The notes below the pieces were generated by a model, which did no database searches, had not been told where the DNA came from, and saw only the letters and a list, made by a program, of their open reading frames with translations. Shown here one piece after another: positions 13,784 to 46,434 of a stretch of 64,000 nt of DNA. How positions within the stretch are numbered: the stretch's first letter is position 1; each line of letters starts with the position of its first letter. Source of the DNA: Bacteroidales bacterium (GTDB lineage: Bacteria > Bacteroidota > Bacteroidia > Bacteroidales > 4484-276). The stretch covers positions 1-64,000 of the forward strand of contig JACZJL010000098.1 in the NCBI GenBank assembly GCA_014860585.1. The letters are read 5' to 3'. The position numbers were made by a program, and so were the translations under genes.

Positions 13784-14365
13784 TCAGGATTGATTGAGCA
13801 GATAGACGAGGTGGGAGAACGAGCGGAGGTTGTTGCGCTGGAGCATGTTTTTGCGGTGTGTGCGGACGGTCTCAGCGCTGATAAATAGCTGGTGGGCAAT
13901 CTGCTTTGAGCTGAAGCCCTGCGCAACCAAACGTGCGATCTCTATTTCGCGCTGGGTGAGGTTCAGGTTGATGTTCTCGTATTCTTGCTTTTTATATACC
14001 GCAAGGGTAGCCATTTGCATATTAACAAGCAGTTGCTTTTCGGTAAACGGCTTCACGAGATAGTTCACCGGTTTGATGCCCATGGCTTCATGCACCGATT
14101 TGGCATCCGAACGTTGTGTGATGAAGATGATCTCAAAATCATAGTTTTGTTTTAACTTCAAAACGACGTCAACTCCGTATTCTCCACCTTTCAGGTTCAT
14201 ATCACAAAGCACAAGGGCGGGGAGGGGGCTCTTCTGGAAAAAGGCCTTTGCTTCTGCATAATTTGCAGCTATTCCCGCTACCTGGTAAGCTTCCTCGGTG
14301 AGGATTGCCGAAATGGATTCTGCGATCACCAATTCATCTTCAATTATGAGCACAGGACAAATCAT
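13784..14365 (-). CDS. LuxR-family response regulator
   Basis: A 193-residue two-component regulator. The receiver domain (about 1-120) has acidic pocket residues Glu9-Asp10, phospho-acceptor Asp55 ('VLCDMNLKGGEYG'), the Thr/Ser of 'FITQRSD' and Lys in 'YLVKPFTEKQ'. A LuxR/GerE helix-turn-helix follows (about 130-190: 'LTQREIEIARLVAQGFSSKQ' and 'SAETVRTHRKNML'). The histidine kinase gene directly upstream on the same strand is the obvious partner. The 249 bp between them holds one of the 164-bp palindromic elements, so the pair may not be simply cotranscribed. Targets are unknown. Confidence 0.93.
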   Translation of the reverse strand: MICPVLIIEDELVIAESISAILTEEAYQVAGIAANYAEAKAFFQKSPLPALVLCDMNLKGGEYGVDVVLKLKQNYDFEIIFITQRSDAKSVHEAMGIKPVNYLVKPFTEKQLLVNMQMATLAVYKKQEYENINLNLTQREIEIARLVAQGFSSKQIAHQLFISAETVRTHRKNMLQRNNLRSFSHLVYLLNQS

Positions 14366-14402
14366 GGCTAAAAATTTTCATAAAAATATAATTTTCTTAT
14401 GA

Positions 14403-14566
14403 AGTACCAGCAAGAAAACTCTCCAAATGTGATTTTCAACGATTAATTACCCCACCCTCCCGAAGTCTCGGGATAAATTCCGGGAGTAAATCGTTGAAAA
14501 TCAATGCTCTCTTTAGGGTTGGGGCACTCATTGATTTTCAACTTCAGGGGTTTTCTTGCTGGTACT
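14403..14566. repeat. 164-bp palindromic element, copy A
   Basis: Perfect 17-bp terminal inverted repeats (14403-14419 AGTACCAGCAAGAAAAC and 14550-14566 its reverse complement) enclose three copies of the core GATTTTCAAC in alternating orientation (14431, 14492 region reversed, 14532 region). The middle copy can pair with the left copy (14 bp) or with the right copy (14 bp, perfect), not both. Located between the histidine kinase stop and the response regulator start. A second copy of exactly the same length is at 17064-17227. No coding capacity. Confidence 0.85.
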
Positions 14567-14614
14567 ATATAACAGTCTAAAAATTATTGCATTGCACTTT
14601 TGACCGGTCATGAA

Positions 14615-16768
14615 TCAATTCATGGTAAAATCAATGGTAAAAACCGTTCCGTTGTGGTACGACCTGCTCATGTTGCCGTCCAGCTGCCGGACAAGGGTGT
14701 TGATGAGGGTCATCCCGAATGAAGTGTTTTCTGCAATGCCAGTTTTGTTTTCTTTAGGAAGGCCGTTGTCCGATACTACCAATTCGACCCGTTTTCTGTC
14801 TTTTTTGTGCAGATCAACCAGGATAGTCAGTCCGGATGGTTCATCAACGGTTGCATGTTTAAATGCATTGGTAACCAGTTCATTTACAATGAGGCCGATA
14901 GGTACGGCGTAATCAACATCCATGTATGTATTGTCGAGGTTTACCTTTGTCGTGATTTTGTTTGTGGGAAGGCCAAAACTGCCGGCAATCAGTGCGGCAA
15001 GATTTTCGATATATTCCCTGATTTCAACCTGGGTTACGCTGTCGGATTGATAGAGTCTCTGATGGAGCAGGGAGATGGAGTCAAGTCGTGTGCGGCCTTC
15101 ATCAATGGCCTGTTTAGTCTTGCTATCCTCGGTTTGGATGGAATGAAGGGTCAACAAACCTGATACGATCTGCAGGTTGTTCTTCACGCGGTGATGGATT
15201 TCCTTGTTCAATGCTTCGATCTTACTATTCTTTTGCATTAACTTATCGGCATACTTTTTCTTTTTCAGGAAGACTATGACCAGTATTACAGCTAAACTGA
15301 CCATGAGAATTGAAATGATGAATAAAAGAAAAGCCCGGCTTTTTTGCCGAATTGCAGCCAGCCGATGAATCTCATTGTCTTTTTTTTCCAGTACCAGTTC
15401 AGCTTCCTTTTTCAGCATGTCATAATCTGCTTGTAATTGTTGAACTTTGAGCAGTTTACTTTCGGTGATGATACTGTCCTTCAAAGAGACATAATCTTCC
15501 AGGGTTGAGTAAGCCTGCTGCAGCTTCCCGCGCTCTCTGAATACTATTGAGATTGTTTTCAGGATATCAGCCTCACGCTTTCCATTCTCATCCTCAATCA
15601 GGATCAGTGCTTCCTGAAGGTATTGTTCAGCTTTCTCCAAATTCCCCCGGTCTATTTCCAGTCTTCCAAGCAGATGCAAAGTGGAGGCTATATCAAAGGG
15701 CGCCTTGATTTCACGCCGCAGTGTTAATGCTTTTGTTAGATATTCATCAGATTTTTTGTACTCATTCTGGTTAAGCAATGTATTGCCATAATTATGGCAA
15801 GCCAGTGCCAACCCGGCTTTATCGCTGGTTTGTTCAAAATTGGCAATGGATTGTCCGAAAAAATAGTCCAGCGAATCGTTTCTGTTCATCTTTTCCAAAG
15901 CTACCGCAAGGTTTGAGTAGGATAGTCCCAGCGAAACCTTGTTTTCCAATTTTGAAGCTACTTTAATACTTTCCCTGTAATAGTCGGAGGCTTTGTCGGG
16001 CTGGTCCAGCAGATTATAAATGTTGCCCATGTTGTTGTAGGATTGGAGCAATCCTTTTTGATCCTTCAGCTTTTCTTTAATGGCAATGCTTTTCAGGTGG
16101 TAATCGAGTGCTTCGTCGTACCTGGTGAGTTCGGAAAGGTTGTTGGCTTTATTCATGTAAATGTAAGCCAGCAGCAACTCTATATTATATTTTGATGCGA
16201 TCATAGCAGCGCTGTCAAGACATTCGATGGCCCGGTTGAAATTACTGGACCGGAAATACATGATTCCCATCCTGTTGTAGATGTCGGCAAGTTCTTTTTC
16301 ATTCCCACTTTTGGACATCAAACGAACGGCTTCCTTGTAAGCTTCACCGGCCTCCTCCAATTTTCCCATTTGCGCCAGGTTACGTCCGATATTGTTGAGT
16401 GCATAAGCCTGCCCTACCGGATAATCATGCTGCCTGGCCAGTTCCAGCGCCTTCTGACTGGTTTCGAGCGCCTGCGGGAACTTGTTTTGCCTGGCGTAAA
16501 CATTGCTGATTTGCACCATGGCGTCCACCTGGCCCTGGAAGTTGTTTGATTTTTTAAACAAAATAAGCGCCTCGGAAGCATCAGCCATGTTTCTTTCCAC
16601 CTCTGAAGCTGGGTAGCTTTTACTTCTCATAAACAGCAGTTTTGCTTTCTCGTTGTCGTCAGCAGAAGTTGAGATTAACCGGGATAAACTGTCGATTTTT
16701 GAGTCCTGCGTATAGCCCTTGAAATACATAGTGATGATAACCAGAACAAGTAATAATTTGACTTTCAT
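14615..16768 (-). CDS. TPR sensor histidine kinase (HisKA_2 type)
   Basis: A 717-residue sensor. A signal/anchor segment (about 1-20) is followed by about nine tetratricopeptide repeats (about 55-440), one transmembrane segment (about 478-500, then KKKK), a HisKA_2 dimerisation domain with phospho-acceptor His near 525 in 'EIHHRVKNNLQIVSGLL', and an HATPase domain with the N box 'LIVNELVTNAFKHA' and G box 'VVSDNGLPKEN'. The periplasmic TPR array would sense a protein or peptide signal. Its partner is the LuxR-type regulator downstream. Both flanks of the gene carry a copy of the 164-bp palindromic element. Confidence 0.92.
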   Translation of the reverse strand: MKVKLLLVLVIITMYFKGYTQDSKIDSLSRLISTSADDNEKAKLLFMRSKSYPASEVERNMADASEALILFKKSNNFQGQVDAMVQISNVYARQNKFPQALETSQKALELARQHDYPVGQAYALNNIGRNLAQMGKLEEAGEAYKEAVRLMSKSGNEKELADIYNRMGIMYFRSSNFNRAIECLDSAAMIASKYNIELLLAYIYMNKANNLSELTRYDEALDYHLKSIAIKEKLKDQKGLLQSYNNMGNIYNLLDQPDKASDYYRESIKVASKLENKVSLGLSYSNLAVALEKMNRNDSLDYFFGQSIANFEQTSDKAGLALACHNYGNTLLNQNEYKKSDEYLTKALTLRREIKAPFDIASTLHLLGRLEIDRGNLEKAEQYLQEALILIEDENGKREADILKTISIVFRERGKLQQAYSTLEDYVSLKDSIITESKLLKVQQLQADYDMLKKEAELVLEKKDNEIHRLAAIRQKSRAFLLFIISILMVSLAVILVIVFLKKKKYADKLMQKNSKIEALNKEIHHRVKNNLQIVSGLLTLHSIQTEDSKTKQAIDEGRTRLDSISLLHQRLYQSDSVTQVEIREYIENLAALIAGSFGLPTNKITTKVNLDNTYMDVDYAVPIGLIVNELVTNAFKHATVDEPSGLTILVDLHKKDRKRVELVVSDNGLPKENKTGIAENTSFGMTLINTLVRQLDGNMSRSYHNGTVFTIDFTMN

Positions 16769-16809
16769 AATTCATTTTTTTTGAGAAACGATGAATAAGA
16801 ACGGCAATA

Positions 16810-16834
16810 AACAATCTTGATTTTGAGATTGTTT
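16810..16834. repeat. Inverted repeat upstream of histidine kinase
   Basis: AACAATCT (16810-16817) and AGATTGTT (16827-16834) lie about 45 bp upstream of the kinase start. Possible regulator site or leader hairpin; no further support. Confidence 0.35.
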
Positions 16835-16898
16835 GACCAGAAAGAAAATTTAACAATAAATTATTATTGGATTTGAAGTCGGTTTTTCCTGGATTATT

Positions 16899-17033
16899 TT
16901 GCAGACCGCATTTCAGCTTGTTTTTGAAGAACTTTCAGGAAAATGGATAGAAAATCAAGGCAACAAAATTCAAATCACCCGTCACCACGATAAAGTGAAT
17001 TACATTTTCAGGAAAACGCTGAAAGTAATTTAA
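16899..17033 (+). CDS. Possible small ORF or gene remnant
   Basis: A 44-residue frame with a TTG start and TAA stop, containing 'ELSGKWIENQGNKIQITRHH' and ending 'FRKTLKVI'. The composition is protein-like (amphipathic strands) and the frame is open upstream to 16857, but there is no ATG and I do not recognise a family. It may be the end of a decayed gene. Low confidence. Confidence 0.22.
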   Translation: MQTAFQLVFEELSGKWIENQGNKIQITRHHDKVNYIFRKTLKVI

Positions 17034-17063
17034 TGTGCTATCAGATTAAGATTCCGATAACTA

Positions 17064-17227
17064 GTGACTACCAGAAAACAACCTGGATATGATTTTCAAC
17101 GATTTATTTACCCCACCCTAAAGGGAGTAAATCGTTGAAAATCATTGCTCCCGGAGTTTATCCCAAAAAATTCGGGAGGGTTGGGGCGAACAATGATATT
17201 CAACATTATGTGTTTTCCGGCTGTCAC
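17064..17227. repeat. 164-bp palindromic element, copy B
   Basis: Imperfect 17-bp terminal inverted repeats (17064-17080 and 17211-17227, 15 of 17 paired) enclose three copies of the GATTTTCAAC core at 17091, 17132-17144 (reversed) and about 17194-17204 (one mismatch). Compared with copy A the two internal spacers are exchanged and inverted, while the three core motifs keep their orientation. The middle-right pairing is kept by a compensatory A/T to T/A change. Lies between the E1 dehydrogenase stop and the kinase start. Confidence 0.82.
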
Positions 17228-17384
17228 AAGGTAGTTTTTGGATTAAAACTATCTTCAGGGAAAATCAACCCGTTCAACCACCGGCATGCTGCAGCCTGAG
17301 ATAAATTTAAAAAACTTTTTTATTTCACCTCGCCTGTTCCTTTGTCAAAGTCGGGCTGGCAATACACCGGTTTCCCATCAGTTC

Positions 17385-34074: not shown

Positions 34075-34148
34075 CGAGGCTGTCTCAAAAGTCTGGATTT
34101 AACCCGAACCGTTGAAAATCCAAATGAAAGACTTTTGAGACAGCCTCG
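34075..34148. repeat. 74-bp hairpin element, copy 1
   Basis: Perfect 20-bp terminal inverted repeats, CGAGGCTGTCTCAAAAGTCT (34075-34094) and its complement (34129-34148), enclose 34 bp containing GTTGAAAATC. A same-length copy in the opposite orientation is at 46361-46434. It looks like a miniature inverted-repeat element; no target-site duplication was visible. Confidence 0.8.
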
Positions 34149-46360: not shown

Positions 46361-46434
46361 CGAGGCTGTATTAAAAGTCTTCCTGTTAGATTTTCAACCT
46401 TCTGAATTAAAAATAGACTTTTGAGACAGCCTCG
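46361..46434. repeat. 74-bp hairpin element, copy 2
   Basis: Terminal inverted repeats at 46361-46380 and 46415-46434 (18 of 20 paired) match those of the 34075-34148 element, with the same 74-bp length and a reverse-oriented GATTTTCAAC core. It lies between the small protein gene and the M20 dipeptidase stop. Confidence 0.8.

Follow-up and report, generated by a model that had tools for sequence, protein, structure and literature searches.

Two palindromic elements flanking a histidine kinase gene are very likely copies of a Bacteroidota MITE family, most probably served in trans by an ISNCY-type transposase

The available part of the source on MITECca01 of Cardinium describes an IS982-derived Bacteroidota MITE of ~240 bp, which is gene-less, high-copy and mostly intergenic (PMC9769881). 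BrickBuilt and related MITEs of Porphyromonas gingivalis are intergenic as well and carry ends like those of ISPg of the IS5 family (PMC4596501). Elements A and B, located on either side of a histidine kinase gene in the 64,000-nucleotide stretch analyzed here (the window), are very likely two copies of a Bacteroidota MITE family whose transposase is most likely an ISNCY enzyme acting in trans. Like MITECca01, the family is gene-less, intergenic and high-copy, with insertion-sequence ends and a Bacteroidota host; it differs in that MITECca01 has IS982 as its parent, and neither a double hairpin nor covarying ends are reported in the accessible part of that source (PMC9769881). With BrickBuilt it shares the Bacteroidota host, the intergenic position, insertion-sequence-type ends and an internal structure, but BrickBuilt has GAGACCTTTGCA ends, 4-bp duplications and internal 23-nt tandem repeats, not hairpin modules (PMC4596501). 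REP/BIME sequences and REPINs with their RAYTs are likewise small intergenic palindromes in alternating orientation; unlike these, as far as the accessible portions of the sources go, the present family duplicates its target and has a candidate partner of DDE type (PMC2817692, PMC3733652). The same ends, GT....(G)..AGAAAAC, and the same 6-bp duplication of TANNTA are found in one ~1.84-kb clade of the ISNCY family (NF033593, transpos_ISNCY_1), compared with which A and B are gene-less and have only the ends in common. A literature search returned no link between MITEs and ISNCY in Bacteroidota, which, at partial coverage with few subscription papers, is weak evidence.

Two bystander genes make up the immediate context. 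A TPR sensor histidine kinase (TPR-HisKA_2-HATPase) is encoded between A and B at 14615-16768 on the minus strand, and its response regulator (receiver + LuxR) at 13784-14365, also on the minus strand, with its start 38 bp from A; the upstream neighbour gene encodes a dehydrogenase E1 / transketolase-type protein. This agrees with the sequence-only reading, which had placed A and B on either side of the kinase and A in the gap between kinase and regulator. With its ends set by the family copies, element A is a 162-bp copy on the plus strand at 14404-14565, and element B is a 164-bp copy on the plus strand at 17064-17227. The length of 164 bp previously given for both is correct for B; the earlier ends of A were one base too wide, because comparison with all copies assigns the outermost A/T to the target-site remnant, and the equal length was therefore partly a coincidence of boundaries. 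The left terminal inverted repeat of A (GTACCAGCAAGAAAAC, 14404-14419, plus strand) is paired at 16/16 positions with the right one (14550-14565, minus strand). The 17/17 pairing claimed for the ends of A was reproduced; for B, the outer 16 bp pair at 13/16. Target-site remnants border both elements: TATGAA (14398-14403) and TATATA (14566-14571) flank A and match at 4/6 positions, and TAACTA (17058-17063) and AAGGTA (17228-17233) flank B, decayed to a 3/6 match. Both elements contain the three GATTTTCAAC-type cores in +/-/+ orientation that had been noted before. In A, GATTTTCAAC lies at 14431-14440 and 14533-14542 (both plus) with an inverted copy at 14493-14502 (minus); in B, GATTTTCAAC at 17091-17100 (plus) is followed by an inverted copy at 17134-17143 (minus) and by GATATTCAAC at 17195-17204 (plus).

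BLAST searches with A found tens of copies in its own genome. The elements lie far above a chance alignment, a possibility raised earlier: dozens more genome copies match A, the best other one at E = 8e-45, and both A and B fold much more strongly than shuffled sequence (z-values below). We counted at least 71 two-ended copies in the 4.7-Mb genome, and 71 of these together with five from two relatives (G002 and G010) form the set of 76 two-ended elements analyzed here. The core pattern gave 103 matches in comparison to 1 in a reversed-pattern control, and the end pattern 159 in comparison to 12. Elements fall into size classes from 60 to 226 bp and hold no transposase gene. Intergenic placement was seen for 70 of the 76 copies, in tandem, divergent and convergent gene arrangements and next to unrelated genes. 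The search of the genome and its relatives proposed in the sequence-only reading thus returned many intergenic copies with fixed ends, not a locus-specific pair, and its suggestion of a non-autonomous mobile family is supported by these copies, by target duplications and by a candidate transposase whose gene is bounded by ends of this kind. Of note, at seven loci (L085, L025, L007, L063, L049, L047 and L054) a neighbouring reading frame runs into the element by a single base, and its stop codon TAG would combine the TA of the target copy with the first G of the element. At L083 (~790-835), a chimeric short element joins the left end of the family to a right end of the GAGGCTG family.

The ends common to the copies read GTnnnnGC[A/C]AGAAAAC. 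Directly outside them, the 6-bp flanks are perfect direct repeats in 28/76 copies (4.9 when left and right flanks were shuffled between copies in 5000 shuffles, maximum 14), and 53/76 copies match at five or more of the six positions (shuffled 26, maximum 38). The target sites share the consensus TANNTA, most of them reading TAATTA. The two middle bases of the flanks match directly in 54 copies versus in inverted sense in 23, which marks the repeats as a duplication rather than a continuation of the palindrome. A target duplication of fixed 6 bp thus holds at the level of the family, with the flanks of A and B decayed. Elements of this kind would be short non-autonomous transposons that insert at TANNTA, mostly between genes, and duplicate 6 bp.

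Of the 393 genomes sampled from the order, 53 contained the combined end-plus-target pattern, the richest of them with 122 matches, and the reversed control of the pattern gave only a few single matches across all 393. A scan of GTDB recovered the pattern in many Bacteroidota records; a few of the matches, e.g., one Arenicellales record, may be due to chance, since several are expected by estimate at that size. Element interiors vary widely across lineages. Between family ends at L233, one of the GTDB loci, lies a 485-aa transposase, assigned to ISNCY by NCBIfam NF033593 (402 bits, cut-off 325) and to DDE_Tnp_1 by Pfam. Family-type ends stand 1849 bp apart at L253, with TATATA on both flanks, and 1844 bp apart at L254, with TATTTA on both flanks, which are perfect duplications in both cases. 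The same kind of ends was found at L252, at the broken copy L263 and at fragments in G077. Those ISNCY transposases with such ends that could be placed in a tree form a single clade supported at 100/100. L251, L265 and the L246/L261 fragment belong to it as well and lack two recognized ends, and other ISNCY loci (e.g., L255-L257) showed no end pair of this kind. Shared ends and target suggest that the copies are most likely cross-mobilized by ISNCY-type elements, with the transposase supplied in trans by ~1.84-kb insertion sequences such as those with like ends and target in other Bacteroidota. Compared by eye with L233, L253 and L254, the MITEs agree only in the terminal ~16-20 bp, and no derivation of the MITE interior from a parent insertion sequence was seen. 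No ISNCY transposase was detected in the draft assembly of the own genome at E<=1e-10. Draft assemblies often drop repeats, and the ISNCY source of the copies may be lost or unassembled. Five candidates for long elements with two matching ends (L093, L114, L195, L214 and L191) were rejected, each being either a pair of distinct short elements or ordinary genes with chance ends on both sides, and the single ends in G100, considered as transposase neighbours, adjoin ordinary genes only.

These data bear on a very improbable alternative, that A and B are palindromes of the REP/REPIN type, mobilized in single-stranded form by a RAYT-like tyrosine (Y1) transposase. Small size, strong palindromes, many copies, intergenic position and alternately inverted cores would all fit, but the non-palindromic flanks are directly repeated and the ends agree with those of an insertion sequence of the DDE family. 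Y1 transposition is not known to repeat its flanks directly, and REPs moved by tyrosine transposases are not expected to leave target duplications. The earlier description of the elements as REP-like therefore holds for their appearance but, as target duplications are present, not for their mechanism.

The four n bases of the ends vary among copies, yet are identical at both ends of the same copy in 32/76 elements (shuffled 4.1, maximum 12), and 72/76 carry the same base at the A/C position of both ends. When 19 copies of the 142-144-bp class were aligned, 44 cells of the ends and first hairpin were changed on both sides in comparison to 13.8 after shuffling, with few one-sided changes, and the second hairpin contained 14 in comparison to 4.0, with zero one-sided changes; these counts are inflated by kinship among the copies. 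Such covariation, together with strong folding of the single strand (z = -7.2 for A and -5.3 for B against dinucleotide shuffles) and the location of A in the gap between kinase and regulator, would fit a functional RNA or regulatory element, i.e., a terminator, attenuator or protein-binding site, retained at the kinase operon for expression. However, mismatches in the end pairs were G.T in 50 and A.C in 46 cases, and the near equality reveals no strand-specific wobble as expected of RNA. Rfam covariance models gave no match to A or B at E<=1, copies adjoin unrelated genes in every gene arrangement, and by our own count 18 of the 37 copies that lie in a tandem context are co-directional with the genes, i.e., no strand preference exists. 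We give a retained RNA or regulatory element slightly less credit than REP-type transposition; the earlier proposal that a regulatory element was captured on either side of the kinase is not supported, for want of an orientation preference relative to flanking genes and because A and B are no closer to each other than to other copies. For the MITE family, the rarity of one-sided intermediates points to arms that are corrected against each other and kept matched at the DNA level, probably via template switching or conversion between the arms. In other genomes (L103, L125, L127, L129 and L115-L122), the same ends bound longer hairpins, and variable bases of one end recur there in an internal inverted copy (GTnnnnGATAAGAAAAC type).

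The interior is built from exchangeable hairpin tips. Slot 1 holds a short, long1 or long2 tip and slot 2 a short or long1 tip, in the slot 1/slot 2 combinations short/short (19 copies), short/long1 (13), long2/long1 (11), long2/short (7) and long1/short (3). A is long1/short and B is short/long1, with the module inverted in the other slot. The exchange of spacers between A and B that had been noted before is therefore real, and it is a case of family-wide shuffling of hairpin-tip modules, not exclusive to these two. BOX elements of Streptococcus pneumoniae are a modular repeat with exchangeable internal blocks too; their host is unrelated, and the modules of the present family are the tips of hairpins, enclosed by paired cores. 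Differing interiors within identical ends, and an arm-6 bp-arm layout like that of recombinase sites, could also suggest a substrate of a site-specific (tyrosine) recombinase with the 6 bp as crossover region and not as target duplication. We consider this as improbable as the RNA or regulatory reading, given that the flanking 6-mers differ among copies but tend to agree within a copy, and that in several genomes such ends enclose a protein gene whose product is a DDE transposase.

Twelve copies are of a 60-bp solo form with one core, as many as belong to the 143-bp class (12). Solo L085 is identical to the 186-bp copy L059 over all 50 arm bases, and G008 and G002 contain solo-like copies too. 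The hairpin-tip pattern had no match in G008, which hints that the solo form may be older than the filled form. In the own genome, the tip pattern gave 49 matches, in all examined cases only inside such elements. The filled MITE would be seen as a 60-bp solo element carrying a double hairpin, which is built of three GATTTTCAAC cores in alternating orientation and has exchangeable tips. The same double hairpin, with an inverted pair of CTCCCTTTAGGGTTGGGG as tips, is found in three terminal-repeat families of this genome. The second family has GAGGCTGTCTCAAAAG ends, a 72-bp solo form and filled forms of 150-174 bp with GATTTTCAAC stems. Two 72-bp solos of this family lie within the window at 34076-34147 and 46362-46433, with GAGGCTGTCTCAAAAGTC ends and one GATTTTCAAC core; the ends of this family gave 51 matches in the own genome. 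In its filled forms at L284, L296, L302 and L337-L342, the three-core double hairpin replaces the single core, and no clear target duplication was seen at these loci. The third family, found in the own genome and in G004, has ends TTCTACTTTAACA...TGTTAAAGTAGAA and GATTTTTC stems; L333 (~970-1070), L334 (~980-1050), L035 and L039 show the same tips on GATTTTTC stems. In all three families the stems match the core of the host element, GATTTTCAAC in two and GATTTTTC in the third, and in the first two the solo form has one core and the filled form three. It is conceivable, although we regard it as rather doubtful, that the double hairpin represents a cassette of second order, mobile or copy-templated, which enters the middle of unrelated MITEs; the core would then be duplicated on arrival and copied inverted into the stem. 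Movement of the cassette by itself, recombinational copying at the shared core, or loss by deletion between cores may each account for the pattern.

Least probable of all is that A and B act as a pair, i.e., as a composite transposon or as repeats excising or inverting the kinase gene as proposed earlier: they do flank one gene at a distance of 2.5 kb, but they have the same orientation with only patchy similarity, are not close kin (similarity below the family mean, mutual ranks 38 and 41 of 52), have unmatched outer flanks (TATGAA versus AAGGTA), and chance alone predicts 3.4 neighbour pairs <=2.66 kb apart for ~80 copies in 4.7 Mb. As members of the MITE family, A and B are probably independent old insertions with nothing special about the kinase; their age is suggested by the decayed target duplications (TATGAA/TATATA and TAACTA/AAGGTA). 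A close orthologue of the kinase that could present the empty site was sought in the sampled genus and family, and none was found.

New in comparison to the described systems are the 60-bp solo form, the covarying arms and the double hairpin common to two further terminal-repeat families. The family accounts for a type of intergenic palindrome, present in many Bacteroidota genomes, that may be taken wrongly for a regulatory sequence or an RNA element, and ties such palindromes to a named, testable transposase group. Pairs of solo and cassette-bearing forms, along with the covarying arms and their few one-sided intermediates, provide a natural data set on DNA-level palindrome correction in bacteria, which also bears on the transfer of hairpin cassettes between MITE families.
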